Assembly (NCBI GenBank): GCA_014360465.1
Contig: JACIXQ010000016.1
Location: 1-38,470, forward strand
Reading direction: 5' to 3'
Length of the DNA stretch: 38,470 nucleotides
From: a bacterium
GTDB taxonomy: Bacteria > Armatimonadota > JACIXR01
Positions within the stretch are counted from its first letter, which is position 1, and each line of letters begins with the position of its first letter. Shown one piece after another: positions 7,491-31,195 of this stretch. The notes below the pieces were generated by a model. The model did no database searches and was not told the origin of the DNA. It saw nothing but the letters and a program-made list of their open reading frames with translations. Made by a program: the position numbers and the translations under genes.

Positions 7491-9512
7491 TCAATCTTCT
7501 TTAACTTTAAGCCAGGGGTAAGCTATTACGGTAAATACGGGTGTGGCGTCGAAATAATCGTAGGCAAAAGGCTTATCGGCGAATTCTTTAAAGTATTTTC
7601 GCCAATCCTCCTTTTTAAACCTGTGAATTGCTATCAAGTCGGCGTAATCATAAGCCCTTTGGGCGCTTTTCTCATAATATCGCCACCACTCTTGTTTTTG
7701 GAGGATATTCCAGAGATTGTAAATATCCTCTTTGGGAAGCCACCATAAGGGGACGAAGGAGAACCAGGTGTACATCGTGTAGTCCCAGGGTATTTCAATT
7801 TTTATCTTGAAGCTGTCCCATTTAATTTCTGAGACGATATTGTCCTCGCCATATTCGGGTTTGTGCTTATAAATAGCCATTGCTTTGAAAGCAAAGCTTG
7901 CTCTTGCAAGGAATTCGGTTGAAAGTTCTTTTTCCCCTGCCATATTAAAAAGATGATATAAACAGGCATAAGAGAGATAACCGCCAACTGTGGATTCAAC
8001 GATTATATGGAAGAAGTCGGGACCCGGAAAGGCATATGCTGAGCCGGTCCAGTCGTAGGCAGGTGGGAGGGTTTTTGCGATAAGCTTTGCCTTACCAAGT
8101 ATCCTTACAATATAGCTTTCATCAACCAGCTTTATATAGGCAGCGGTAGGGTAAAGCAGTGTGGAGGTAATCTCGGGATAATCCACTTGTGGGATTGAGG
8201 GGGGTGGTTCGGGGAACCAGTAGATACCAGTTTTTTCATCCCTCTCCAGCTTATCCCACCAGTGGTCAAGACACTTTCTCACAGCCTGGGCAACTCGTTC
8301 TTTTAGAGGCGATTTAAGAATTGGGTAGAGCTGGATAAGGGCGGATGCTGTCAAGCCATCGTAGAAGGGTCTTCCGCGGGAGAATGTGAATGTTCCATCC
8401 GGATTTTGATGGGAAAGTATATCCTGAAGATGTTTTTCTATAGTTCTCATTTCGGTATCAGGTAGAGAGGGGAAGTTAATTGTGAGTTTGGAGAGATTAG
8501 GAGGTTGGGGAAGGTGAATGCGTATGGAGTCTCCCTCAATATATCCTACATCTCCGAATAAGGAGGGAATGTAGAAGTCTGCTTTAACAATGTCGGTGAG
8601 TGTAGGGGGAATTTGAATAAGCTTGAGCGAAGCGAGGTTTAATTGAGAGGGTTCTTCCCTGAATGTTGAACGGTACTCTATATAGGGACCGTTGTTGTCT
8701 ATTCCATAGAGCGTTGTAGATTTCCCGGGAGGTGAGCAGATACTTCGCTGGAGCTTGGTGATGACTTCCTGTTTCAATTCATCAGGAGGGATGGGTAGTA
8801 TTGCATAATATATTGGTGGCAAGACATATTTTTGACCAGGATTTAGTGTATCAGTGAACGCTATTCTGATCTCGCTTTCGTTTTTGTAAATGCTTTTTGG
8901 AGGGATTGTGAAGAAGAAGAGATAAGTTACAGGTTCTTGGGAATGGAAAAGGACATAACCGTTTCGCAATTCCTCTTTATTTTGGAGAATGAATCCCTCT
9001 TTTATTTCCTGTTCTTCTTTCCCGTGTAGTTTAAAATATGCCGGTGCAGTCATTCCCGCCCAAGGATAACCAGCAAGGACATACTGAACTTTCATTTGCT
9101 TCTTAGGCTCTATTTCCGCCCAGAAGCGAAGGTATGGATAACCTATCCATACCTCGCAATAGGTTTTCAGGGAGAAATTTTCGTTGGAAGCGCTTTTTGC
9201 GACGATGATGTGGTTATCATTGTGGCTCAATATTTCCGTTCCATCTTCAGGATTGAGGAATTGGGTAAAAAGATACTGGTCATCTATAAGTAAGGTCAAG
9301 AAGCCAGCATACACTGATTTGCCGAACTGGTCATTTTCCCTTTTGGGCACAATTGCAAATACCTTGAAGCCACGTTCTACATAAACAGAGTAGTGGATGT
9401 TCCAGAGATAGCCTTCTTTTTTGGCAAGTACTTGGGAGAATCTGCCCAGTTCTATCTCGCTCCGAAGCAGGGTTGACAGTAAGAGGAAGCCAAGAAGAAA
9501 AAGTCTTTTCAT
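7491..9512 (-). CDS. Secreted protein, beta region plus alpha/alpha toroid, unknown function
   Basis: The function is not recognised. The 673-residue protein starts MKRLFLLGFLLLSTLLRSEI, a clear signal peptide. Residues 20 to about 330 are predicted mainly beta, rich in Trp, Tyr and Phe. From about 360 the protein looks like an (alpha/alpha) toroid, as in glycoside hydrolases, lyases and terpenoid-cyclase folds: the turn QNPDGTFTFSRG is followed by repeated amphipathic helices with many Trp and Pro. ATG 9512 is chosen over one 42 bases upstream because it starts the signal peptide directly. A TAAAAT ends seven bases before this ATG, so the mRNA may be leaderless, though no good -35 is seen. 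It resembles the 1254-residue protein at 20411 in layout. A carbohydrate-active role outside the cytoplasm is inference. Confidence 0.75.
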   Translation of the reverse strand: MKRLFLLGFLLLSTLLRSEIELGRFSQVLAKKEGYLWNIHYSVYVERGFKVFAIVPKRENDQFGKSVYAGFLTLLIDDQYLFTQFLNPEDGTEILSHNDNHIIVAKSASNENFSLKTYCEVWIGYPYLRFWAEIEPKKQMKVQYVLAGYPWAGMTAPAYFKLHGKEEQEIKEGFILQNKEELRNGYVLFHSQEPVTYLFFFTIPPKSIYKNESEIRIAFTDTLNPGQKYVLPPIYYAILPIPPDELKQEVITKLQRSICSPPGKSTTLYGIDNNGPYIEYRSTFREEPSQLNLASLKLIQIPPTLTDIVKADFYIPSLFGDVGYIEGDSIRIHLPQPPNLSKLTINFPSLPDTEMRTIEKHLQDILSHQNPDGTFTFSRGRPFYDGLTASALIQLYPILKSPLKERVAQAVRKCLDHWWDKLERDEKTGIYWFPEPPPSIPQVDYPEITSTLLYPTAAYIKLVDESYIVRILGKAKLIAKTLPPAYDWTGSAYAFPGPDFFHIIVESTVGGYLSYACLYHLFNMAGEKELSTEFLARASFAFKAMAIYKHKPEYGEDNIVSEIKWDSFKIKIEIPWDYTMYTWFSFVPLWWLPKEDIYNLWNILQKQEWWRYYEKSAQRAYDYADLIAIHRFKKEDWRKYFKEFADKPFAYDYFDATPVFTVIAYPWLKVKED

Positions 9513-9767
9513 AGTTTTGATTTTAAGAAAAAATGAGAAAGTAGGAAAGAGCAATTTTCGCTACTTTTTATCAAAAACCGCAACACATAAGAGAAAGGAA
9601 GCCAGACGAGCTTTTGTGAGGAAGTCTCGCTACGAAGAGATTCAAAAAGATATTTGAATTATCCAGAGCAAAAGTTACAAGAGAAGCATTTGGTATCGCT
9701 AAAAATGCGGTGTAGTAAAGGTCATATTCTCTTGGAGTCCAATATGTTAGAAAATTCTGGAGTTTCT
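9513..9767. other. Intergenic gap before the metallophosphoesterase promoter
   Basis: No convincing gene is present. The stretch around 9598-9650, with a GTGAGGAAGTCTCGCTACGA core, looks like a decayed copy of the repeat type at 24431-24560, but the match is loose. The start region of the 7491-9512 gene lies at the left edge and the next promoter begins at 9768. Confidence 0.4.
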
Positions 9768-18190: not shown

Positions 18191-19270
18191 CTAATAGGCT
18201 CTACTTTTTCTTCGGGGTGAAAATTTGGATAATAGAACAAAATATCTTTGGATTAAATCTTCCAGCAGATTTATAGAAAATAAAGCATATCTGGTTTCCT
18301 CTATCGGGTTCGAATATGATGAGGAGGAATAAAATCCATCTCCTTTATAAAAACCATTAACTTTCTTCAGCAACAATTCAATAGACTTAATTAATTGGGA
18401 TAGTTCGTATTGTTGGAGTGTTATTTTTGAATAGAGAAAATCAAGACAGTAGACGATCTTTGCCACATTTTCTAAACTATGAGATTCTTTAGTACTGTAA
18501 GATAAAGCCTTTAGGAACCAAGTTTGTATGTTTTCTGGAATTTTATTTAGATTATCCAATATGAAACAAATTTCGAAAAAGCTCTCTAAATCCCGCGGTA
18601 TCATTTTAAGGATTTTCTCTTGATCGATTACACTTTGAAGAAGTTTGGAAAGCTTTTGCTTGAGAATATCAATTAATTGATGTTGAAATTCCAAAATGAA
18701 GTTTTTGACATCTATCATATAACAAACTTTTTCCAATTTCTTATCGGGGAGAAGTATTTCTTCAAATTTTTCCTTAGGTACTCTAAATGCTTCACTTCTC
18801 CAAGCTTCCACGAATCCCCTTATACCGTTTTCCATTATCCATTTTGGTGTAATTATCGCGTATTTAAGCAAAGGTTTGTGGATGTATATGAAAAACTTAC
18901 CTTCTATGGGTTTAACAGTATGATGTTTCCTTTTCACTATCTTGGAAATCTTAAAATCATAAAATTTTAAATCCTCTTTATCTGCATACTGGAACTCAAA
19001 TTCTACAATTTGGCCATCTATCTCCGCTATAAAATCGGGTTCCCTTGTAATTCCTCCCTTTCTTAAAAACCATAAAAATCTATCTCCGCCCGATTTGCGT
19101 ACTGTTATTTGTTTATTGGGGTTTAATTCTCGCAATTTTTCCTCCAACCACGGCAGAACTTCTAATTCCGCAATGGCTTTTCTTTTCATATCCTTACGAT
19201 ACTCTAAGTAAGTTCGGGACTTTATATCAGAGGATTGCGCGTATATCTCCCTTGCGTCTTGATAATTCAT
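18191..19270 (-). CDS. Probable restriction endonuclease partner of the adjacent methyltransferase
   Basis: No close family is recognised. The 359-residue protein follows the methyltransferase by six bases on the same strand, the usual place for a type II partner nuclease. A candidate PD-(D/E)xK core is visible: GGDRFLWFLRKGGITREPDF (D79), then IVEFEFQYAD (E90, E92, Q94). The canonical lysine is replaced by Glu or Gln; BamHI is a known enzyme with an ExE core. The C-terminal half is helical, with no other motif. The gene is strikingly AT-rich: line 18541-18600 has 18 G/C in 60. The start has only a weak Shine-Dalgarno and is probably coupled. Function rests on context plus the motif. Confidence 0.6.
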   Translation of the reverse strand: MNYQDAREIYAQSSDIKSRTYLEYRKDMKRKAIAELEVLPWLEEKLRELNPNKQITVRKSGGDRFLWFLRKGGITREPDFIAEIDGQIVEFEFQYADKEDLKFYDFKISKIVKRKHHTVKPIEGKFFIYIHKPLLKYAIITPKWIMENGIRGFVEAWRSEAFRVPKEKFEEILLPDKKLEKVCYMIDVKNFILEFQHQLIDILKQKLSKLLQSVIDQEKILKMIPRDLESFFEICFILDNLNKIPENIQTWFLKALSYSTKESHSLENVAKIVYCLDFLYSKITLQQYELSQLIKSIELLLKKVNGFYKGDGFYSSSSYSNPIEETRYALFSINLLEDLIQRYFVLLSKFSPRRKSRAY

Positions 19271-19276
19271 AGTTTA

Positions 19277-20347
19277 CTAAAGAAGCTTTGTCTGATAGTT
19301 TTTTAAATTTTTAAAAGCCTCCATAGCTATTTCGGGATTTATCTCGTAGCCTATGCCATTTCTCCCTAAATCCGCTGCTGCTAGGAGAGTTGTTCCGGAA
19401 CCCACGAATGGGTCAAGAACAGTTTCTCCTATGTAGGAATAAGCCTTAATTAACCTGTAGGGAAGCTCATAAGGGAAAGGGGCAACATGGTTTCTTCTAT
19501 CGCCACTCCCTTGGGGTTTCATTATCCAGACATCGCTTTTCTTTATTGTGAGCCAGAATTCTTTATCTAATTTGGATTGCTCTTTCTGTTCCTTTGTTAA
19601 GTGTCCATACTTATCTTTCCCTTCTTTTTCTGGTTTCTCGAATTCAAGGATAAATTCGTGAGCGTTATTTAGCAGAATACCGCCCGGATATGGATATGTC
19701 CCGAAAGGAGCTCTTACGGAGTTCGTTTTGTGCCATATTATATCCCTTTTGAAGATAAACCCGATTTTCTCGCAGATGTCTATCGTCCAACCCACTAAAT
19801 TCAGAGTTCTGAAACTTCCATTTTTCAATCTAACGGGAAGATTCATAATGTTAATGAAGGCTTTCCTTCCAGATTGTAGTACGCGGAAAACCTCTTTCCA
19901 AACTTCGGATATCTTCTCCAGCCACTCGTTCAAATCGTGGATGTTTCCCAAATCATTTTCAATAGGTTCTCGGGAATACATTTTGGTGTTGAAATAGGGA
20001 GGAGATGTAATCATAAGATGAACGCTCTCATCAGCAAGGTTCTCCATTTTCATCGCGTTCTTAACGAAAAGCTTTTGAACGGTCCCATTTAGCTCAATTA
20101 TGTATTCGTCATTTTTGCTTTCAATTTCTCTTTTTCGCTGGAGATTTAGCTCGGCTTCGTATCTTTTTAGCTCTTTCAGGTCAAATCGCATCTGTCCGCT
20201 TGCAGCGATTTGTGTTCTGATAACTTTTCTTTTGACCAACTCATGTAGGGCTTTAACCGATATATTTAGATACTTAGCTGCCTCCACAGCAGAGAGATAT
20301 GACCTATCTTCATAATCATTTGACTTTACCCTTTTAGAATAGTCCAT
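19277..20347 (-). CDS. DNA methyltransferase (TSPPY type) with N-terminal helix-turn-helix
   Basis: This enzyme transfers a methyl group from S-adenosylmethionine to cytosine N4 (most likely, from the SPPY motif) or adenine N6. In the 356-residue protein the catalytic TSPPY (114-118) precedes the AdoMet site VLDPFVGSGTTLLAAADLG (310-328), the order of beta-class enzymes. Residues about 17-65 form an excisionase/MerR-like helix-turn-helix (YLSAVEAAKYLNISVKALHE, then a wing QIAASGQMRFDLKEL), unusual in front of this domain. It may help target recognition or repress the gene's own promoter, as the N-terminal HTH of some C5 methyltransferases does. The gene is AT-rich, like its neighbour. A strong promoter lies only 14 bases before the ATG, with no Shine-Dalgarno. 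Confidence 0.9.
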   Translation of the reverse strand: MDYSKRVKSNDYEDRSYLSAVEAAKYLNISVKALHELVKRKVIRTQIAASGQMRFDLKELKRYEAELNLQRKREIESKNDEYIIELNGTVQKLFVKNAMKMENLADESVHLMITSPPYFNTKMYSREPIENDLGNIHDLNEWLEKISEVWKEVFRVLQSGRKAFINIMNLPVRLKNGSFRTLNLVGWTIDICEKIGFIFKRDIIWHKTNSVRAPFGTYPYPGGILLNNAHEFILEFEKPEKEGKDKYGHLTKEQKEQSKLDKEFWLTIKKSDVWIMKPQGSGDRRNHVAPFPYELPYRLIKAYSYIGETVLDPFVGSGTTLLAAADLGRNGIGYEINPEIAMEAFKNLKNYQTKLL

Positions 20348-20392: not shown

Positions 20393-20426
20393 CCCGACCC
20401 CAAACATCTATCATAGCGGGGTAGGG
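20393..20426 (-). terminator. Hairpin across the stop codon of the 1254-residue gene
   Basis: CCCGACCCC (20393-20401) and GGGGTAGGG (20418-20426) pair with one mismatch around a 16-base loop that contains the TGA stop (20411-20413). No U-tract follows at once. It probably marks the 3' end of the secreted-protein mRNA and insulates the methyltransferase promoter that begins three bases later. Confidence 0.45.
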
Positions 20427-23400
20427 CTTAACCTGATCCAATCTATTTCGAATTGGATTCCGGTTCCACTTCCAGGGTCAAGCCTGATTTGCACTATCGT
20501 TCCTTTCCACTCGGGAGAATCAGCCACCCTGACATTATATGTATGCCATTCGCCATCAGCTATAATGGGGAAATGGATGCTCTTTTGCTCGGTCATAGAT
20601 GTCTCGTCCTCCCTAGCCCAGAATATCTGGGCATCGGGAACCGCACCCGGTGGTAGTGGATTGAATTTCATCCGCAAGGAGATATATGGATACTCGTTTG
20701 CCGAGACCCTGAAAAATGGGCTTTCCATATAGGGGTCGCCTCCGATAGACCTTCCCTTAAGGGTACCGCCTGATACATTGAAGGGAGCGAGGTCGTGGGT
20801 TTCCGACCAGCCCTCTGGGTCGTTATCAACATTGAACTCCCAATCGGGCTTCGCGGTGAGGAGTGGTGTCCTGTTTTCCTTCGCTTTTACTCCTTCTATC
20901 CTCAGATTGAGGAATGGTTCATCGTGCTTGACCTTTATTATAAGCAGACCGCCATTGCGCTCATCGTATCGCCACCATTCTTCCTCTTCTATATTCTGTG
21001 AGATTTCCCTACCATTCCTAAGAACTCTTATCGGGCGCTCGATTGGGGCAACGGTTGTATAGGTTGAGATGGGCTTCCCTGGGATTGAGCGTGGTGACTT
21101 AAGGGTGAGGAGCAGGTTATCGCCATCCAGCTTAGCATTTATTGAGGGTGCTTCGGAGTTGACCATAATCTTCAGGTTATTCTGGAATAAAAGGAAGAAG
21201 GAATTATCTTGCGGGTCTTCCTCTGGATTGCGCAGGATATAGACATTCCTCGCTATTCCAGCAGGGTTAAGCATACCGGGGTCGCTCTTCGTGTATGTCA
21301 TCAAGTTGACGGAATCGGGATAGCCACCTTTATGTTCGCCCTCTGTCGTTTGCATTTGCATAGCGCAGAGCGTTATTCCCTCTGCGATGTGTTTCCAGGG
21401 ATAGCTGTCATCATATTGAGCCAATTTGAGAAGGGAATAGGCGTAATCCAGCCCACACCACTGGACGGGAGTGCCAAACCAGGGAGCGGCATTGTAGAAG
21501 CTAACGCCGAATATGGGGATCGTGGCATAGAGCATCATCCTGGGACGGTCGGGAGCGTTCCATACATAGACGAATGGTAGCCCCGTTTTCGCCCAGAATA
21601 TGGCTCGCTTGAGATATTCCTTATCTCCCGTAAGTTTATAAGCCTCAAGGTAGAGAAGAACGCCGTTTGCCGAGGCGAGTATGTCAGGGGCATGGAGGGG
21701 GATTTCCCAGGTTTGTGCTCCCTCAGGGCGGGTGAAGTGGTCTGTTATATAATTGAGTGCTTTCAGCCCAGCTTCCCAGGTGAGCTGGTTGTTGGTGAAG
21801 CGGGTATACCTTAGCAGAGCGGTCGCCCTCCTATTCAGGAATGTGCAGGTGCCGATTGAGGTATCGCCTTCCGCTCCCAGATTCGGTCGCTTCGGGTTGA
21901 ATTTTCTCAGCATTTCCGTGTTCTGGGGGTCCATCTTAAATCCCCAGCTTCCATCCTCCCTCTGGGTGGACATATCAAGGGCGCATTGCTGGGCAAGGGA
22001 ATTTATCTGCCCTACAAGCCGCAGATAGCGCGGTGGAATATCGGGAAATCCACAGAGCTGGAGCTCCAAATCGTAGTTGCGGACCCTTTGGGGTAAAGGA
22101 GGAATGCCGAATTTCTCAAGATAGAAATCAAATGAATCGGTTATATCAAGGGGATAGCCACCGATAAGCCAGTAATGAAGTGAGAGCTTAACCTGGGGAT
22201 TCAGTATGAAGGGTTCGCTTGCTTTCTCCTCGTTTTCCTTGACCCAGCGTGGGATGGAGGGGAGAAAGAGTCCAAAAAGGTGATTGTCTTGCCCTTCCAA
22301 CCAGTTAGGAGAGGCGAAGAGTGCGGATGGGCATACATTTACGCCGTCCCATTTCTGTAATGGGTCCCACATAATTCCCACGAGATGTTTATCTTTCACA
22401 AGGGTCATCATCGGCACGGTAATCTTGTAGGGATGGGGAGCATGTTGATCGTTGAATGGTGGGTCGCCGAACTCGGTTGAGATGGAGCTTTCTCCCTTGA
22501 GCATATAGAAAAGCCCAGGGAAAAGGGCATAATCCTTATCAGAACCGAACTCTCCCTCACCGATGTAGAGGCGAGGACAATGGATGGCGAGGAGTTGGAC
22601 GGAATGCTCCGCAGAGAGGGCCCAATCAACATCTATGCTCCTTTGACCGCTTTTCGCAGTAAAACGAATGCTCATCTTCCAGAGAACTCCATCGTCGTCC
22701 TTGAAACTGAGGGGGAAAATCAGCTCAACTTCTCCGGGTTTTTCTTTTTTCTCATATGATTGGGCGTAAAGCAAAGCGTTTGCCTCCTTGCCAATTCTTC
22801 GGCGGTAAATCAAATTGGCAAGATAAGGGGATATAGCCATCCGCATATAACCAGCCCTCATATCCTTCACATCAAGGGCGAATACGCCGTAACCAAAGGA
22901 GTTTTTGGGAAAGACGAGGCGGAGATTTTCATTCTGAATGACAAGGTCGCCATTCTCTTCCATTATACTCGCACCTTTTCCCCAACTGAAATGGGGGAGA
23001 TGTTTGCTAACGACGAGGTACAGCTCCTTCTCCAATTTACCACCCTGCCAGGTTATAGCCAGCTTCAGCTTATGCAAGCCATCCTGAAGTGGCTTAAGCT
23101 CAAATGTTTGCTCCTCCTGCGATGAGGCAGGGAGGAGGGGGAGCTGAAGTTTAGAGGGTTTGATGAGGACGGAAGGAGGAGCGGATATCAAGATGTTTAC
23201 ATTCTGGGCGCTACCCAATCCATCATTTGCAAGGAGGAGATGCAGATTATAGCTGTCGCCACGGAAGTGGATAGCTCGTTTGGTGGAGAACTCCTTCACG
23301 ATGAGTGATGGTTCATAGACGGCAGAGAGGGTGACGGAGTCCTCAATCTGAGGATTGGGATGCCAGCTGAGGGTGAAGGCAACTTTCCCTTTGCTCTCTC

Positions 23401-24175
23401 CTTCTAATTTCCATTTTATATCCCCTTCCTCTCCACTCTTTAAATCTATGCTTTTCTCTGGGGAATCTATCCGTATCCCAGCGGGAGGGCTCAACTTGGC
23501 GGTTAAGTTTTTTGCTTCCTCATCGCCAACATTTTTGAGCCGTAAGGTCAAAGAATCCTTACTTATATCAACCGAGAGAGGGAGGAGGAAGGGACCGGCT
23601 GATTCAACATAGTTTACATCATCTATGATTAATTCTCCATCGCCATTGCCTCCCTCATTTATACGAGGTGCCACTTGCACGCTCCGAACATCGGGCATTT
23701 TGGTGTAATCGTAGGCTATTATTCCGAAATGCCATTTATCGTCGGCGAAGAGGGGAGGGATGACGAAGGTAGTGCGGGCGGGACCGATTTCGTAGTTATC
23801 CTTACCCATTGGTATGACATAGAAGCGGACATTGTCGCCCTCTGCTTTCTTGAGCTTGAACCAGAAGGTAAAGGCGCCCTTGAGGCGTGGGAAGAGGTCG
23901 CCGATTGAGGATTGTTCTTCTCCCTTTTTGCCGATGGGATAGGTGCGGTTGAGACCGGCGACGGAATCCCTTTTGGCTTTCAGGAGGATAGCGTAATTTC
24001 CCGAATGTGCTTCTTTCGTTAGTTTAACTTCAGCTTGTCCTTTTCCAGCGGTATAGCCAATCCAGCCAGTGGGGAAACCATTTTTCAATTCCTCAAAACC
24101 GCCATTGCTCAATGTTTGCGCCTCCAAAAAGAAAGGGAGAAAGAGCAAGATGAGACAAATCCTGAAATTTTTCAT
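20411..24175 (-). CDS. Large secreted multidomain protein, carbohydrate-binding and toroid domains, unknown activity
   Basis: The exact function is not recognised. The 1254-residue protein starts with a signal peptide (MKNFRICLILLFLPFFLEAQ). Next comes a CBM4/9-like jelly roll (about 22-190; LSNGGFEELKNGFPTGW ... LIIDDVNYVES), then two CARDB/NPCBM-like beta domains (about 195-390; RLKNVGDEEAKNLTAKL, LLANDGLGSAQNVNILI). A large beta region (about 400-660) and an alpha/alpha toroid (about 720-960; TQREDGSWGFKMDP, GTPVQWCGLDYAYSLLKLA) follow. The C-terminal beta domain (about 1100-1254; EFNVDNDPEGWSETHD, FEIDWIRLSP) again looks like a carbohydrate-binding module. AGGGTGA lies six bases before the ATG, and a TATAAT lies at 24214-24219 without a clear -35. 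A polysaccharide lyase or hydrolase is plausible but unproven. Confidence 0.8.
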   Translation of the reverse strand: MKNFRICLILLFLPFFLEAQTLSNGGFEELKNGFPTGWIGYTAGKGQAEVKLTKEAHSGNYAILLKAKRDSVAGLNRTYPIGKKGEEQSSIGDLFPRLKGAFTFWFKLKKAEGDNVRFYVIPMGKDNYEIGPARTTFVIPPLFADDKWHFGIIAYDYTKMPDVRSVQVAPRINEGGNGDGELIIDDVNYVESAGPFLLPLSVDISKDSLTLRLKNVGDEEAKNLTAKLSPPAGIRIDSPEKSIDLKSGEEGDIKWKLEGESKGKVAFTLSWHPNPQIEDSVTLSAVYEPSLIVKEFSTKRAIHFRGDSYNLHLLLANDGLGSAQNVNILISAPPSVLIKPSKLQLPLLPASSQEEQTFELKPLQDGLHKLKLAITWQGGKLEKELYLVVSKHLPHFSWGKGASIMEENGDLVIQNENLRLVFPKNSFGYGVFALDVKDMRAGYMRMAISPYLANLIYRRRIGKEANALLYAQSYEKKEKPGEVELIFPLSFKDDDGVLWKMSIRFTAKSGQRSIDVDWALSAEHSVQLLAIHCPRLYIGEGEFGSDKDYALFPGLFYMLKGESSISTEFGDPPFNDQHAPHPYKITVPMMTLVKDKHLVGIMWDPLQKWDGVNVCPSALFASPNWLEGQDNHLFGLFLPSIPRWVKENEEKASEPFILNPQVKLSLHYWLIGGYPLDITDSFDFYLEKFGIPPLPQRVRNYDLELQLCGFPDIPPRYLRLVGQINSLAQQCALDMSTQREDGSWGFKMDPQNTEMLRKFNPKRPNLGAEGDTSIGTCTFLNRRATALLRYTRFTNNQLTWEAGLKALNYITDHFTRPEGAQTWEIPLHAPDILASANGVLLYLEAYKLTGDKEYLKRAIFWAKTGLPFVYVWNAPDRPRMMLYATIPIFGVSFYNAAPWFGTPVQWCGLDYAYSLLKLAQYDDSYPWKHIAEGITLCAMQMQTTEGEHKGGYPDSVNLMTYTKSDPGMLNPAGIARNVYILRNPEEDPQDNSFFLLFQNNLKIMVNSEAPSINAKLDGDNLLLTLKSPRSIPGKPISTYTTVAPIERPIRVLRNGREISQNIEEEEWWRYDERNGGLLIIKVKHDEPFLNLRIEGVKAKENRTPLLTAKPDWEFNVDNDPEGWSETHDLAPFNVSGGTLKGRSIGGDPYMESPFFRVSANEYPYISLRMKFNPLPPGAVPDAQIFWAREDETSMTEQKSIHFPIIADGEWHTYNVRVADSPEWKGTIVQIRLDPGSGTGIQFEIDWIRLSPTPL

Positions 24176-24688: not shown

Positions 24689-25459
24689 CTAAGAACCGTT
24701 TTTACCTTTCAAACTTTTCAGCAGATTGCTACAAGCTTGGCGAAGAATTTGGGCATCTGTGGATAAAGCGACGAAGAGAAATCCCTGCTCAATGTATCGC
24801 TCCACTTCCTCGGTGGATACCGCATGGATGCCCATTGGCTTTCCTTTTTCCCTTCCAACTTTCAAAATCCTCTTAACCGCATCCTGCCACAGGGTGTTCT
24901 CTTTGAAGGGGGTGCCAAGAAGCCCAAGTGAGCTGGCGAGGTCGTTTGGTCCTATGAAAACTAAATCTATCCCCTCAACCTCACATATTTCCTCTGCTCG
25001 CTGGACTGCCTCTATATGCTCTATCTGAACTGAAAGCAGGATTTCCTCGTTTGCTCTGGGGAAATAATCCTCACCATAAAAGGTCTGGACTGCCAACCCG
25101 CCATAGCTTCTCCTTCCCTGCGGAGGGAACCTCACAGCCTCAACAGCAAACCTCGCTTCATCTCCGTTCATAACCATAGGGATAAGGACGCCCATCGCTC
25201 CCGCATCAAGGGCTCTCTTTATCAAGGCACCATCGTTCCAGGCAACCCTCACAAGGGGAGTGGTTGTGGTTGGAAGTATCGCCTGAATAGCTGATAACAT
25301 ATCGGAATAATCCATCGTTCCATGTTCTGTATCAATCATCAGCCAATCAAATCCCACCCTCGCCATTATACCTGCAACGAGGGATGAATCAAGCGTGAGC
25401 CAACTGCCCACAGTGGGTTTTCCCTCTCGCAGTTTTCTCAAAACTGTGTTGTCTCTCAT
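24689..25459 (-). CDS. HpcH/HpaI-family class II aldolase
   Basis: This is a cytoplasmic metal-dependent aldolase that cleaves 2-keto-3-deoxy or 4-hydroxy-2-oxo acids to pyruvate and an aldehyde, as in rhamnonate, galactarate or hydroxyphenylacetate breakdown. The 256-residue protein has MIDTEHGTMDY (H46), R71 in LVRVAWND, RFPPQGRRSYGG, metal ligand E147 in SVQIEHIEA, and D173 in FIGPNDLASSLG: the complete family set. GGAGG lies seven bases before ATG 25459, and the ATG overlaps the preceding gene's stop as ATGA. It is the last gene of the six-gene run, and its pairing with a glycoside-hydrolase-like protein points to sugar-acid catabolism. The true substrate is unknown. Confidence 0.9.
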   Translation of the reverse strand: MRDNTVLRKLREGKPTVGSWLTLDSSLVAGIMARVGFDWLMIDTEHGTMDYSDMLSAIQAILPTTTTPLVRVAWNDGALIKRALDAGAMGVLIPMVMNGDEARFAVEAVRFPPQGRRSYGGLAVQTFYGEDYFPRANEEILLSVQIEHIEAVQRAEEICEVEGIDLVFIGPNDLASSLGLLGTPFKENTLWQDAVKRILKVGREKGKPMGIHAVSTEEVERYIEQGFLFVALSTDAQILRQACSNLLKSLKGKNGS

Positions 25460-27798
25460 TTCCTTTCCTCCTTTATCAACCAGATTTCCGCTACCTGACA
25501 GCCTCTCCCGTTCCCTCCCAGCCCTGGCTCGGGATACCAGCTGAGAATGAGTTCTCCATTCTTTATCGCTGATTTGGGGATTTCGAAATTTAGAGGGCGA
25601 GGAGGATAGGGCTTGGGGATGAATGGGTGAATTTCGTATTCTTCATTAGCAACGAGCCGTATCTTAATCACCCTATCCCCTGCGTAAACGACCTTCAATC
25701 TGTAGGAATATTCTGGGTTTAAACCTTGCAGTCGCAATTTGAGCGGGGCATCGTAGCGGGATTCCAGATGGTACCACCAGGAAATCGGTTTGTCTGGATG
25801 GTGAGCAAAACCAATGAGGGGAGATTCGCGAAATTCCGGGTCCTCTTCATAGGGTTTTCTGTCAACCGCATATGATAAGCTGGTGAAGCTTCCTAAATCT
25901 AAATAGAAACCCCCTGGACCAGGGTTTTTCCAATTAAGGATTTCCTCAATCCTTTTCAAGCGTTCTTTCTCGTCCTGAAGGGAGCGAATTTGGGAGAATT
26001 GGGATTTCAGCCAGATGCTATTATTTAGAGGGAAATCCAGGGTATCAAGGTTAGCTCCCCTTTCAACTTCAATGGCATAGTAGCGCTGGACGCTCAACTG
26101 CATACGGATGCTTTGGAAAAGGGCTTCCGCAAGTTCAAATATCCTCGCCCTGATGTCACTCGCAACAGGTTCGGTAACCGCCTTATTGAGGATTTCCTCC
26201 GCCTTATCCATAGCAAGAAGCGAGCCATAAAGTTGGGCTTTTCTCAATTCTTCCATTGCTTTTTCCTCAAGGTGTCTCTCGTATCTAAGGCGAGCTTGGA
26301 GGTAGGCATCGTAATAAGCTCTGTAAAGAGCCATTTGGAATCGCCAGTTGAGTTTTGTCATAGGCGGCGCAGTTCGTTCCATCTCCTGAAATTGAAGAAA
26401 AGTCGTGGGGATGGAATCGTTGGAGAGAAGGGGACCATCCCAGTTTTTCTCAAGGGAGAGAAGCCCCTGAGCGAAAGCCTCACGGAACTCCTCAGCGATG
26501 AAGTAGCCGGCGTATTCTTGCAGAATTTCAAGCGGTTCAGCCTCTGGATTCCACCCCAGGGTGCTCCAAATAATCTTGTTTACATCGTCGTTACATCCCT
26601 CAGAATAGGTTATGAAACCGATGCTATAAGGAAGATGGCGTTTGGCTATTTGGCTCATCTGGACGGGGCGAGGGTTGATTCCTTCTCTTCCCTGGGTGAA
26701 GGCGAAAGCCATATCCCAATTTGGAACGGGAAACTGGCACTGACGGTTATGGGTTATATCGGGGTAGAGCCGAATTGGATAACGCTGAGGAATAAGCTCG
26801 CGAAGGCGGGGGAGGGGTAGGCGGACCTGTGGTCCAAAGACGACGCCGGTTAGCCAATCTGGCTCTTTTTTCAAAAGAGCGAGAAATTCCTCCATCCATA
26901 CCGAAGAGAAACCTTGAGGAGAGACCCAGAGTTGGGCTGAGGGATGATAATGGCGAAGATTGTCAGCCTGTTTTTCCAGAAAGGAGAGAAGGAGTTTGGG
27001 AGAAGTGTGCCCCGGGTCACCGCCGGGGACGAAGACGGCGTCAAGCCGGGGGAGAGCTTTGAAGACCTCTGCCCATTCCTTGAGAGCGAAGGCTACTGTC
27101 TCCTCATCGGAGTAATCCTCGTCCATAGCGGGATACCAAACCCAGACATCAAGGTCGTACTCATCAGCAAGGCGGGACATCTCCCGCATCATAATCAGGG
27201 GAGGAAGGGTGAACAAGGGGCTATCCGATGCATCGTCCGAGCGGGGAGGGATGAGCTCTATCGCATTGGTGCCAAAGACAACAAGGTCCCTTATATACTG
27301 CTCCCAGATGGCGAGGTCCCACCCATCATAGGAATGGGTCTTGGGACGATACCCTAACTGGTGCCCTCTCAAGGGATAAATGGGTTTTGAGGAGATACAG
27401 AGGTTCTCGGGGATGGACAAGCGGTCGCGCTCCATCCGAAGACACCTTAAGAGCCTGCCTACGGCAAAGAGGGTTGCTCTGGGAGTATTGCCGATTGCCA
27501 GCACTAATGGTCCACCAGCTTGTGATTTAACAACTTTGAGAAGGTAACCCTCATGGCTTGTCTGGTCATCCTGCAAAGTGGGTGGAAGGAGGTCGAGAAA
27601 AGGCTTGGCAGGGGCAGGGCAATTTTCCCTTGTAGCAACGATGATTAGAGGGAAACTTCCTATGGGTAGGTCGGTCGTGGTTGGCAGAATTAAGCGGGTT
27701 CGTCTCGTTATCTCCTCCCTGAGCATCTTCACTGCTTTCAGCTCTGGAGAGGAGATGCCTTTTGGATGGAGAACGACAGCTTTATTTAGCTCTATCAT
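25456..27798 (-). CDS. Glycoside-hydrolase-like protein (GH20/GH67/GH84-type layout), cytoplasmic
   Basis: The family is not firmly recognised. The 780-residue protein has an N-terminal alpha/beta domain (about 1-125) like the GH20b domain that precedes GH20, GH67 and GH84 barrels (ELKAVKMLREEITRRTRLIL). A TIM-barrel-like region follows (about 135-430; YPLRGHQLGYRPK, FGTNAIELIPPRSDD, AVFVPGGDPGHTSPK, WVSPQGFSS), then a helical region, then a C-terminal beta domain (about 640-780; YRLKVVYAGDRVIKIRLVAN) like carbohydrate-binding modules. No signal peptide is present, so it should act inside the cell. The start has only a weak ribosome site, 15 bases after the deacetylase stop. Its ATGA overlap with the aldolase argues that the two work in one pathway. 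Catalytic residues cannot be assigned. Confidence 0.7.
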   Translation of the reverse strand: MIELNKAVVLHPKGISSPELKAVKMLREEITRRTRLILPTTTDLPIGSFPLIIVATRENCPAPAKPFLDLLPPTLQDDQTSHEGYLLKVVKSQAGGPLVLAIGNTPRATLFAVGRLLRCLRMERDRLSIPENLCISSKPIYPLRGHQLGYRPKTHSYDGWDLAIWEQYIRDLVVFGTNAIELIPPRSDDASDSPLFTLPPLIMMREMSRLADEYDLDVWVWYPAMDEDYSDEETVAFALKEWAEVFKALPRLDAVFVPGGDPGHTSPKLLLSFLEKQADNLRHYHPSAQLWVSPQGFSSVWMEEFLALLKKEPDWLTGVVFGPQVRLPLPRLRELIPQRYPIRLYPDITHNRQCQFPVPNWDMAFAFTQGREGINPRPVQMSQIAKRHLPYSIGFITYSEGCNDDVNKIIWSTLGWNPEAEPLEILQEYAGYFIAEEFREAFAQGLLSLEKNWDGPLLSNDSIPTTFLQFQEMERTAPPMTKLNWRFQMALYRAYYDAYLQARLRYERHLEEKAMEELRKAQLYGSLLAMDKAEEILNKAVTEPVASDIRARIFELAEALFQSIRMQLSVQRYYAIEVERGANLDTLDFPLNNSIWLKSQFSQIRSLQDEKERLKRIEEILNWKNPGPGGFYLDLGSFTSLSYAVDRKPYEEDPEFRESPLIGFAHHPDKPISWWYHLESRYDAPLKLRLQGLNPEYSYRLKVVYAGDRVIKIRLVANEEYEIHPFIPKPYPPRPLNFEIPKSAIKNGELILSWYPEPGLGGNGRGCQVAEIWLIKEERK

Positions 27799-27813
27799 TG
27801 TCTTATCATTTTA

Positions 27814-28404
27814 CTAAAGAATCCCTTTACTGGAAAAGGGAATCCGTTGGAAAGTGTAGCCCTTTTCTACAAGAGCTTCTATTATTATCGGTATCGCTTT
27901 CACCGTGTTTTCCCTGCTCGATTTCTGGCGGATTCCATCACCGTCATGGAGAAGGACTATGCAATTGTCTTTCGCTTTTTCTATTACCCTACTGGCAATC
28001 TTTTCTGCTGGTATCCTCTGCCAGTCTTCGGGGTCTATATCCCAGAGGACGAGCTGGTAGCCATTCCGTTTGAGATATCTGGTCAGCCAGGGGGGACGAA
28101 TCCCCCAGGGCGGGCGGAAAAGATTAGTTTTTAGGGAGGTTATCTTTAATATCAGTTCTGTCGTTCGTTCAATCTCCCTGCGGAATGCTCCAATGAAGGT
28201 TAATAACCTGCTATGGGAATAGGAGTGATTCCCTACACTGTGCTTATTTTTTACGATTTGCTCCAATATTTTTGGATATTTTTCTATGTTTTTCCCACAA
28301 ACGAAGAAGGTGGCTTTAACGGCATATTTGTTTAAGATTTCCAAAATGGTGGGAGTATAAATCGGATGGGGACCGTCGTCAAAGGTGAGGAAAATCTGGG
28401 GCAA
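27814..28404 (-). CDS. Polysaccharide deacetylase, NodB/CE4 family, no signal peptide
   Basis: CE4 enzymes remove acetyl (or formyl) groups from N-acylated sugars with a divalent metal. All five motifs are present in the 196-residue protein: TFDDGP (7-12), the metal pair in VGNHSYSH (H60, H64), RPPWG (97-101), DIDPEDW (122-128) and LLHDG (151-155). It starts directly with the catalytic domain and has no signal or anchor, unlike secreted peptidoglycan or xylan deacetylases. That fits an enzyme working at the cytoplasmic face on a precursor, as NodB or ArnD do. The start codon is TTG, six bases after AAGGTGA, which itself overlaps the stop of the upstream glycosyltransferase. The two proteins are thus coupled. 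Confidence 0.92.
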   Translation of the reverse strand: MPQIFLTFDDGPHPIYTPTILEILNKYAVKATFFVCGKNIEKYPKILEQIVKNKHSVGNHSYSHSRLLTFIGAFRREIERTTELILKITSLKTNLFRPPWGIRPPWLTRYLKRNGYQLVLWDIDPEDWQRIPAEKIASRVIEKAKDNCIVLLHDGDGIRQKSSRENTVKAIPIIIEALVEKGYTFQRIPFSSKGIL

Positions 28405-28410
28405 TCCTCT

Positions 28411-29739
28411 TCACCTTTTTAGGTGAAAGTGTTCCACCTTTTGGAACTTGTTCTTGATGACCTTTTCAACTTTCGCCAATCTTTTTTCCATTTTCACTTT
28501 TTCCATCGCCAAATAAGGGGAGCGGAAGAAGAAAAGGGAGAATAGATAGATTGTCATAATGAGAAAGGGTAAGGGAGAGAGCATATGGAAAGAGGAGGGT
28601 TCCTTTCTGATTGCAGGGAGGGGTGTCTGGACATTCTTCCTAAGCAGAAGACGACCTATCGTGTTTTTCGCGTATGTCCAAGTTCCCTTGAAGAAACCTC
28701 TGTGGTATCTTCTTCCCGATGTCCTTACTCTGAAACAGGGGTCAAGGACAACCTTTCCAATTTTGCCCAATCTCAAGGTGAAATCGGCATCTTCTCCGAT
28801 TTTTAGCTCGGTGTTGAAGCCGCCGATTTTCAAGGCGGCTGATTTTCTGAAGGCAAGATTGGAGGCGGGGATGTTCCAGAGACCATCGCTGAGCCATTTG
28901 TCAAATATCCAGAGGAAATGGGCGAAGTGGCGAATCCAGATACGGGCTATTACGGGTCCGCTGTAGAGATTATAAAGCCCGCCGAAAGCCACGAGATGGT
29001 CGTCCTTTCGGAATTCGCTCACTATGCGCGATAGCCAATCCTCCGGAAGGATTACATCTGCATCGGTCATTGCTATTATCTCCCCCTTTGCTTCAAGGAG
29101 TCCCTTTTGCCTGACAGCTCCTATCGTCTTCTTTTTTTCTATCAAGACTCTTGCTCCGAATTTCTTTGCTATCTCTCTTGTTCTATCCTCTGAGCAATTA
29201 TCAACAACTATTATCTCAAAATCCTGGAAATCCTGTTCAAGAAGGCTTTGAAGAACATTACCGATATAATTTTCCTCGTTATAGGCTGGGATGACGACCG
29301 AGATAAAGGGGTTGTCAGGATTTTGTCTTGGTTTTGAAGGTGGTTTTGGGGGCGCGACTTCTTGCTGGTTTCCCAGCCAGAGGAGAAACAAGAAAATAAA
29401 ATTTACCAGGAGAAGCAAGAGGAAATTGAATAAAGACCAGTAATCGCTGAAAGGAGAGCGGGTGAGAAGTCCGAAACCATCAGCAAGTATCCCCAATCCC
29501 GTTCCCAAGCAGAGATAAGGAAGAGATGGGCGCTTGAATAGGTAGGAAATAAGGGAGATAAAAAATATGGGGAAGGCGATGACGAGGTGCCAATAGGGGA
29601 AAAGAATCAAAGGACAGGGGCGGTTGTAATAGATGAAAGCGATGCTTCGTATCAGGAGAATTGTGAGCCAGAAGGAGATATATACGATGGTAAGCTCCTC
29701 CACATATTTGACGAATAGCGAGCTTTTCCTTGCCTTCAT
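28411..29739 (-). CDS. Membrane-anchored family 2 glycosyltransferase
   Basis: This enzyme transfers a sugar from a nucleotide (or lipid) donor, probably to a lipid carrier. The 442-residue protein has four predicted N-terminal membrane helices (about 17-37, 47-67, 75-92, 103-123), a proline-rich linker, then a GT-A domain (about 146-345) with ISVVIPAYNEENYIG, VDNCSEDRTREIA, the metal motif DAD (226-228) and the acceptor ED (316-317, KIGEDADFTL). A fifth helix (about 388-408) and a basic tail follow. The ATG overlaps the upstream membrane-protein gene as ATGA, and the stop lies in the ribosome site of the deacetylase. Dolichol/undecaprenyl-type GT2 enzymes share this order with flippase-like and deacetylase genes. 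Confidence 0.9.
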   Translation of the reverse strand: MKARKSSLFVKYVEELTIVYISFWLTILLIRSIAFIYYNRPCPLILFPYWHLVIAFPIFFISLISYLFKRPSLPYLCLGTGLGILADGFGLLTRSPFSDYWSLFNFLLLLLVNFIFLFLLWLGNQQEVAPPKPPSKPRQNPDNPFISVVIPAYNEENYIGNVLQSLLEQDFQDFEIIVVDNCSEDRTREIAKKFGARVLIEKKKTIGAVRQKGLLEAKGEIIAMTDADVILPEDWLSRIVSEFRKDDHLVAFGGLYNLYSGPVIARIWIRHFAHFLWIFDKWLSDGLWNIPASNLAFRKSAALKIGGFNTELKIGEDADFTLRLGKIGKVVLDPCFRVRTSGRRYHRGFFKGTWTYAKNTIGRLLLRKNVQTPLPAIRKEPSSFHMLSPLPFLIMTIYLFSLFFFRSPYLAMEKVKMEKRLAKVEKVIKNKFQKVEHFHLKR

Positions 29740-30773
29740 TCATCCATCGCCTCCTTCCCGATTTTCCTCGCTTCTCTTCTCATATTTATTAACACGATGA
29801 CGCCGACGGCGAGAGGAAGCCAGTATGAGAAAGCACGGTAGAGGGCACCAGAAAGGATGACGATGTGGGCAGGGATGCCAAGTGAGGTAAATATGACGCT
29901 TAGGGAAGCAAGAAGGACCCCGGGAGTTTGGGGCACCAAGGTGAGGGCGCTGAGAAGAAGGGAAAGAGAATAGCCATAAACTATATGGAAGAAATTACAT
30001 TTCTGCCCAAAGATGAAGAAGGAAAAATAGAGGGTCAAAATGTTGCCAAGATAGAAGATGAGCGAGGCAAGAAAAGCCTTGGGTAGCTCGCGATAATGGT
30101 TCTCCAACATTCTAAATGTCTGGTAAAGGCGCGGAATAAATCTCTTCGGGCGTTCAGAATCAATCAAATCTCTTTTAAAGAGGAACATTGTTATACCATT
30201 TAAAATCCTTGATAGTGAGACAGTGAGGGAAATAAGTTTCCTGCCCTCATCTTTCAAGAGATAGTAGATTGCAAGAAAGAAAGTAATAACTACAAAAATA
30301 CAGGTTATAAGGGCTGGGGGAGGAAGGAAATATAAAGGTGAGACAGGAGCGAAAAAGAGGCTGAGAAAGAAGAAAATCCCATACATAATGTAGACAAGGA
30401 ATGTCCAGCTGATGACAAGGAAGACGATTGCTTCGTGGGGTAATTTCAATTTGCGATAGAAATAATAGCTCAAGGCTACACCACCAAGGACGGGGAAAGC
30501 CTGGTTACCAACGACTCCGAGGATGGCTATCCTTAAGGTATCGCGGAGACGAAGATTGTATCCCCCCATTTTTAAGACAATTTTTGACAACCAGCCATCT
30601 CCGAAATAGTAAAGGGTTTGGGCGATGAGAAGGAGGGGAATGAGGGTTTTATTCGCTTTACGGAACACCTCGGGAATCTCATTATAGGTCTCGCCAAGCT
30701 TAGGAGCAAGAATCCAGAAAGCAATTCCCATCAGTATTAGAACAAACACATATCGCCAATATCTCATATTCAC
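29736..30773 (-). CDS. UPF0104 / LPG-synthase-type integral membrane protein
   Basis: This polytopic protein of 345 residues has about eight helices. It matches the lysylphosphatidylglycerol synthase membrane-region (YbhN/UPF0104) group by LILMGIAFWILAPKLG at the start, GVVGNQAFPVLGGVALSYYF in the middle and LTLVPQTPGVLLASLSVIFT near the end. It lacks the soluble aminoacyl-transferase domain of MprF. Members next to glycosyltransferases are often suspected lipid or lipid-sugar flippases; that is inference. The start is GTG at 30773, overlapping the lipoprotein stop as GTGA; an ATG two codons later is also possible. It is coupled on both sides. Confidence 0.85.
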   Translation of the reverse strand: MNMRYWRYVFVLILMGIAFWILAPKLGETYNEIPEVFRKANKTLIPLLLIAQTLYYFGDGWLSKIVLKMGGYNLRLRDTLRIAILGVVGNQAFPVLGGVALSYYFYRKLKLPHEAIVFLVISWTFLVYIMYGIFFFLSLFFAPVSPLYFLPPPALITCIFVVITFFLAIYYLLKDEGRKLISLTVSLSRILNGITMFLFKRDLIDSERPKRFIPRLYQTFRMLENHYRELPKAFLASLIFYLGNILTLYFSFFIFGQKCNFFHIVYGYSLSLLLSALTLVPQTPGVLLASLSVIFTSLGIPAHIVILSGALYRAFSYWLPLAVGVIVLINMRREARKIGKEAMDE

Positions 30774-31159
30774 TCTTTGTTGAGGAAGAAGTCTACTTCT
30801 TGTGGTGAATCAGGAGAAGATAATATAACTTCTTTTGTAGATGATTGGTATTCCGATTTAGAAGCGGTAAGCAGATAAACTTTGTTGGGAGAGCTCCAGG
30901 GAACCCAGAGGTAATATTTTCCCTCTGAATCGGTTGTCTTGCTATCAAGGATGGTCTGAGGGTCATCCTTGTAGCAGGCGGAAACGGAAGCACCCGGCAG
31001 GATACGACCTGCGGTGTCCTTCACATAACCATAGATATTATATGGTGGGGGGGGAGGGTTGTTGTCAGAGGGGGTAGGTGTTCCCCCTCCACCTCCTCCA
31101 CATCCGCTAAATAACAGGATTAAGGAAACCAGAAAGACAGATATAAGAACAATTCGCAT
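30770..31159 (-). CDS. Lipoprotein with carboxypeptidase-regulatory-like domain
   Basis: This 129-residue surface lipoprotein starts MRIVLISVFLVSLILLFSGC, a signal peptide ending in a lipobox with Cys20 as the lipidated residue. A flexible Gly/Pro-rich linker (GGGGGG, PTPSDNNPPPPP) follows, then one carboxypeptidase regulatory-like (transthyretin-fold) beta domain: IYGYVKDTAGRILPGASVSA, TTDSEGKYYLWVP. ATG 31159 is preferred over one 36 bases upstream because a consensus-like promoter ends exactly seven bases before it; the longer form would begin at the promoter -35 itself. It is the first gene of the six-gene glycan operon and likely an envelope-anchored binding or scaffold protein. Confidence 0.85.
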   Translation of the reverse strand: MRIVLISVFLVSLILLFSGCGGGGGGTPTPSDNNPPPPPYNIYGYVKDTAGRILPGASVSACYKDDPQTILDSKTTDSEGKYYLWVPWSSPNKVYLLTASKSEYQSSTKEVILSSPDSPQEVDFFLNKE

Positions 31160-31166
31160 TTGTTTA

Positions 31167-31195
31167 AATATAAGACCTGTTTTATTAATTGTCAA
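31167..31195 (-). promoter_or_regulatory. Promoter of the six-gene glycan operon, leaderless
   Basis: On the minus strand: consensus TTGACA (31195-31190), 17 bases, TATATT (31172-31167), then seven bases to ATG 31159. The predicted start falls at or within a base of the start codon, so the mRNA should be leaderless. Confidence 0.75.

Follow-up and report, generated by a model that had tools for sequence, protein, structure and literature searches.

A six-gene operon of an Armatimonadota bacterium as a likely fusion of a membrane lipid-sugar module with a glycoside hydrolase-like protein and its aldolase neighbour

The contig JACIXQ010000016.1 (GenBank assembly GCA_014360465.1), a stretch of 38,470 nucleotides from a bacterium of the Armatimonadota lineage JACIXR01 that was analysed at full length and is called the window here, carries on its minus strand six closely packed genes, at 31159-24689, for a lipoprotein, a UPF0104 membrane protein, a membrane glycosyltransferase of family GT2, a CE4 deacetylase, a glycoside hydrolase (GH)-like protein and an HpcH/HpaI aldolase. 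We consider it likely that two modules with separate functions have been fused locally in this operon, one concerned with membrane lipid-linked sugars (module 1) and the other with cytoplasmic sugar-acid catabolism (module 2, the GH-like protein and the aldolase). From sequence comparison, the latter pair appears to represent a hydrolase-like family that is undescribed, repeatedly has an aldolase as its partner and moves between bacterial phyla; no description of the pair was found in the open-access literature.

Distribution of the two modules

The original prediction treated the six genes as a single pathway. In the neighbourhood comparison, which for the quartet of GT2, CE4, UPF0104 and GH-like genes covered two phyla and 30 loci, the complete set and its order were found in this genome only, as far as searched, and the modules stood apart elsewhere, an outcome that the original prediction had itself named beforehand as refuting it. 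The genus was represented by two congeneric genomes, G001 and G002, which like the others compared are drafts. In both, a lipoprotein gene (~57% identical protein) lies beside the gene of the UPF0104 flippase (71% identical). G001 keeps these two genes, followed directly by a convergent gene, and GT2 is absent. In G002, where lipoprotein and flippase are intact, GT2 is a decayed pseudogene with large deletions (fragments 44-86% identical; L061 11948-11336, minus strand), and the start of the remnant still overlaps the stop of the flippase gene by 4 bases. Neither CE4 (at E<=1e-20) nor the GH-like protein was found in G001 or G002, and the aldolase had no match in the neighbourhoods retrieved from them. 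Because the sisters keep the lipoprotein-flippase pair, G002 with a decayed GT2, and both are without CE4 and the GH-like protein, we read lipoprotein-flippase(-GT2) as the inherited module of the genus. A search of 291 genomes of the phylum gave no full-length relative of the GT2 elsewhere, the best outside matches (~75-81 bits) being to the catalytic domain.

Relatives of the GH-like protein (34-62% identity) occur in 37 of the 291 genomes and in 15 of the 297 genomes sampled from the acidobacterial phylum; 30 loci come from Acidobacteria, Verrucomicrobia, Planctomycetes, Hydrogenedentes and others, and the contig scan by which relatives were sought detects close ones only. The closest relatives, in other families of the phylum (59-62% identity) and in an acidobacterial metagenome-assembled genome (58%), are those with which the tree places the window protein. 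In the set of 87 non-redundant GH-like loci, no CE4, UPF0104 or lipoprotein gene lies near the GH-like gene at loci other than the window's, and the single GT2 near it outside the window is 4.9 kb away on the opposite strand. Since module 2 is otherwise absent from the genus and its nearest relatives belong to other families and phyla, it was probably acquired horizontally, not recently, and would have been placed behind the promoter of a resident module 1. For such an insertion, at a point between module 1 and def-fmt (as these follow each other in G002), a clean empty site was not demonstrable, because in G000 and G001 def is placed on different contigs.

Gene order and transcription

The operon comprises, in order of transcription, the genes for the lipoprotein (31159-30770; true ATG at 31159, lipobox LLFSGC), the flippase-like UPF0104/LPG_synthase_TM membrane protein (30773-29736), the GT2 (29739-28411), the NodB-like CE4 protein (28404-27814; TTG start), the GH-like protein (27798-25456) and the aldolase (25459-24689), a class II pyruvate aldolase. 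Three junctions (lipoprotein/flippase, flippase/GT2 and GH-like/aldolase) are 4-base overlaps, and the remaining two are gaps of 6 bases (GT2/CE4) and 15 bases (CE4/GH-like). The layout first described, including its order, single strand and close spacing, is thereby confirmed, as are the gene families by Pfam and NCBIfam, except that of the GH-like protein, for which no Pfam match was obtained at E<=0.001.

The strong promoter assigned to the operon (TTGACA-17-TATATT; 31195-31167, minus strand) was also borne out: it scores highest among the 18 promoter-like sites of the region, where shuffled sequences give 11.5, and G001 has similar -35 and -10 elements at an equal distance from the lipoprotein ATG. 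Because the -10 element ends 7 nt before that ATG, the transcript is probably leaderless. The six genes are likely to be co-transcribed. The claimed lack of an internal terminator is unproven: a hairpin and U-rich tail (UUCUUU; 27841-27822, minus strand; -11.8 kcal/mol, z -2.1) sits exactly at the CE4/GH-like junction and is a possible weak terminator, yet it is within chance for the region, as is a promoter-like site near the same boundary (27836-27808).

Module 1

The lipoprotein has a CarboxypepD_reg-like domain (PF13620, E 1.4e-9), and the UPF0104 protein belongs to its family both by PF03706 (E 4.6e-17) and by TIGR00374, which is above cut-off. The GT2 (PF00535, E 6.3e-32) has an estimated three N-terminal and one C-terminal transmembrane-like segments, and no QxxRW motif was seen in it; its best NCBIfam models, TIGR04283, MftF and EpsD, are all below cut-off. 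The CE4 protein (PF01522, E 3.1e-30) lacks a signal peptide and contains the motifs TFDDGP, HSYSH, RPPWG and LLHD of its family. It reaches none of the NCBIfam equivalog cut-offs for NodB, PdaB and PgdA, the best models being PdaB (149/237 bits) and NodB (142/240 bits). A lipid-linked sugar module of GT2, CE4 and UPF0104 flippase is plausible. On the cytoplasmic face, a lipid carrier or an envelope glycan would receive a sugar from the GT2; the NodB-like CE4 protein would take an N- or O-acyl group off the product, and the flippase would move that product outward.

Predicted fold of the GH-like protein

The GH-like protein bears no family name in Pfam or NCBIfam, although the family may already have a GH number among the 194 GH families of CAZy. 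An alignment of 50 members has 48 invariant positions and a mean column identity of 50%. None of these members matched PF15979 (Glyco_hydro_115) even at E<=1, the GH67 middle or C-terminal catalytic Pfam domains or the GH84 NAGidase domain; N-domain matches were obtained to PF03648 (29 of 50, weak) and GH20b (27 of 50). A phmmer search of the PDB with the single protein gave a chance match only (E 0.45), and a profile is needed to see relatives.

The AlphaFold2 model (pLDDT 94.8, pTM 0.94) has four predicted domains, namely a GH67N-type N-domain, a TIM barrel, a helical domain and a C-terminal beta domain. Foldseek placed GH115 alpha-glucuronidases first (E 2e-21), followed by GH84, GH67 and GH20, and the alignment to GH115 spans model residues 1-778, so that the overall fold of that family, C-terminal beta domain included, is present in the model. 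VIA-align gave Z values of 20-21 for GH115, 18-19 for GH84 and 18 for GH67; because these differ little, GH115 is the nearest structural relative of the modelled protein only by a narrow margin. A comparison of the family profile with GH115 proteins from the phylum by hhalign yielded a probability of 92.7% over residues 7-289, that is, the N-domain and the first half of the barrel.

Five acidic residues of the barrel domain are invariant in the family: E181, D261 (beta4 loop), D347 (beta7), D404 and D405. Two residues essential to BoAgu115A, Asp-332 and Arg-328, are on a mobile barrel loop (PMC3879575), the GH115 catalytic motif of the beta4 loop being RxxxD. In the profile alignment, which ends at residue 289, this loop corresponds to the beta4 position of D261, with the residues in different columns, and the beta1 Asp of GH115 (FxND; Asp-206 of BoAgu115A, PMC3879575) falls in a gap and has no aligned counterpart. 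If active, the GH-like family would be an additional sister to the GH115, GH67 and GH84 families.

Aldolase and GH-like neighbourhoods

The window aldolase is a member of the HpcH/HpaI family (PF03328, E 3.5e-39) with the catalytic His and Arg and the metal-binding Glu and Asp in place; these residues (H46, R71, E147 and D173) are conserved in 13 of 13 GH-linked HpcH aldolases aligned. It matches best the model of the C7-diacid aldolase HpaI, with GarL also among the matches, and stays below the NCBIfam equivalog cut-offs of HpaI, GarL and RhmA (best 213/369 bits). Its identity is 41% to the GH-linked aldolase nearest to it and ~33% to the others, and the data are compatible with a separate recruitment of aldolases to the GH-like loci.

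Enough sequence was available at 87 non-redundant GH-like loci, the window included, and in 21 of these a pyruvate-type aldolase adjoins the GH-like gene (18 HpcH/HpaI and 3 DHDPS-class). Over the 58 loci with gene-called flanks (728 open reading frames), nine of the ten HpcH genes are directly at the GH-like gene. At three loci (L071, 3599-4483; L141, 6260-7129; L087), whose GH-like proteins form one clade, a DHDPS-class aldolase occupies the exact place of the HpcH gene. Along the GH-like tree there are at least 10 changes in the aldolase label, in which gain and loss are not distinguishable. Such recurrent neighbours provide an unusual handle on guessing the substrate of the GH-like protein. 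Others include D-galactonate-type MFS transporters, a Gfo/Idh/MocA protein, Fe-ADH, PIG-L, acetyl xylan esterase and sulfatase, and because of these the surroundings of the GH-like gene are read as a sugar-acid or polysaccharide catabolic setting. No isomerase or dehydratase was found consistently beside the GH-like/aldolase pair.

Three close loci (L047, L049 and L055) share two further features, a galactonate-type MFS transporter upstream of the GH-like gene and, ~190 bases downstream of it, a gene for a 404-aa protein without a Pfam family (10582-11796 in L047).

Proposed function and alternatives

In the fusion that we favour, the GH-like enzyme, distantly related to the GH115 and GH67 glucuronidases and to GH84 and GH20, would act in the cytoplasm on an oligosaccharide taken up by the cell and release from it an acidic sugar or a derivative of a sugar. 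The HpcH aldolase would cleave the sugar acid, either at once or with other steps in between, and so yield pyruvate and an aldehyde. Four observations weigh against this account. The pairing is recurrent and not universal, 66 of the 87 loci having no adjacent aldolase. Many or most relatives of the GH-like protein appear, as judged by eye, to carry an N-terminal signal or Tat-like leader, whereas the window protein begins at the domain and has no signal peptide, and its location and substrate may differ from theirs. Its codon usage is host-like (correlation 0.91), and therefore any transfer was not recent. Finally, neither in this genome nor in two Acidobacteria that have the pair was the uronate isomerase UxaC found, which is evidence against ordinary glucuronate catabolism; that route was rejected as a candidate.

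The kinship with GH115 suggests a uronic acid substrate. The GH-like protein could accordingly be an alpha-glucuronidase-like enzyme that feeds either the oxidative route through glucarate, of the GarL type, or some other uronate route, a reading that we regard as possible but on balance unlikely. GH115 is the best match by both structure and profile, GarL is among the matches of the aldolase, and galactonate-type MFS transporters are among the neighbours. However, neither the GH115 nor the GH67 catalytic domain was matched in the 50 members, the beta1 Asp lacks its counterpart, UxaC was not found in the genomes named above, and a search of this genome for the enolase superfamily (PF13378, MR_MLE_C) gave weak matches only, with no clear sugar-acid dehydratase.

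Some of the same results can be read differently. The family might cleave off a bound 2-keto-3-deoxy (ulosonic) acid of the Kdo or Dha type, which the adjacent aldolase would split without the help of any intermediate enzyme, giving pyruvate and a shorter sugar. Direct use of the hydrolase product is attractive but unproven, and it is attractive because the neighbouring aldolases come from two unrelated classes, HpcH and DHDPS, the latter including N-acetylneuraminate lyase. The inconstancy of isomerases and dehydratases beside the pair, the failure to find UxaC, the weak MR_MLE_C matches and the preference of the window aldolase for the HpaI model, below cut-off as it is, all fit. We nevertheless hold this reading to be improbable, since the structural relatives of the GH-like protein act on uronic acids or N-acetylhexosamines and most GH-like loci are without an adjacent aldolase. 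If true, it would mean a new glycosidase family and, spread over several phyla, a portable catabolic module of two genes and two steps, with the aldolase recruited separately from two classes.

The single pathway, in which a lipid-linked sugar is assembled, deacylated and flipped by products of the operon and the same sugar is then recycled through the GH-like protein and the aldolase, is favoured by the tight packing behind one promoter and by CE4 and GH-like proteins that both lack a signal peptide and may share the cytoplasm, but is very improbable, given the separation of the modules in every other genome examined and the weak hairpin at their boundary. What survives of it is the likely co-transcription and the plausible lipid-linked sugar module; the recycling loop does not, as GH-like/aldolase pairs are found elsewhere without adjacent GT2, CE4 or UPF0104 genes and the sisters have lipoprotein and flippase without the GH-like protein or CE4.

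Other features of the window

Downstream of the operon, 20411-24175 encodes a predicted exported protein of 1254 aa with sub-threshold CARDB and NPCBM_assoc matches only. At 18191-20347, an N6/N4 DNA methyltransferase that carries HTH_17 and is a type II MTase in PADLOC stands beside a low-GC (0.33) gene for a 359-aa protein without a family. The two resemble a type II restriction-modification pair whose endonuclease is not recognised as such. A 687-aa open reading frame without a Pfam match (7491-9554) lies between a heat-shock cluster and ligA.

Comparison with known systems

All four domains of the GH-like protein align end to end with the GH115 xylan alpha-1,2-glucuronidases BoAgu115A and wtsAgu115A. 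In contrast to this likeness, identity is 11-13%, the overall rmsd is large (domain shifts), PF15979 is not matched, and the mapped GH115 catalytic residues do not fall in matching columns. With GH67 alpha-glucuronidase and GH84 O-GlcNAcase the protein shares the GH67N-type N-domain and the barrel fold, but not the GH67 middle/C-terminal or GH84 catalytic Pfam matches. The window aldolase has the fold family and the four active-site residues of HpaI, GarL and RhmA/YfaU, yet lies under every one of their equivalog cut-offs.

ArnC/ArnD, proposed earlier as the model for the glycan genes, resembles the operon in having a GT2 next to a CE4 protein; the model is not upheld, because the GT2 scores best against TIGR04283, MftF and EpsD and the CE4 protein against PdaB and NodB, all below cut-off. 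The statement that no such system had been described holds for all six genes together, but not for three of the protein classes in module 1. In archaea, a neighbourhood of UPF0104, polysaccharide deacetylase and glycosyltransferase genes, together with AglD GT2-UPF0104 fusions, is described in a passage of one report, where flipping of lipid-linked glycans is proposed (PMC5898192). Unlike module 1, that neighbourhood is archaeal and, in the same passage, is described without mention of a lipoprotein; like it, module 1 has the same three protein classes side by side.

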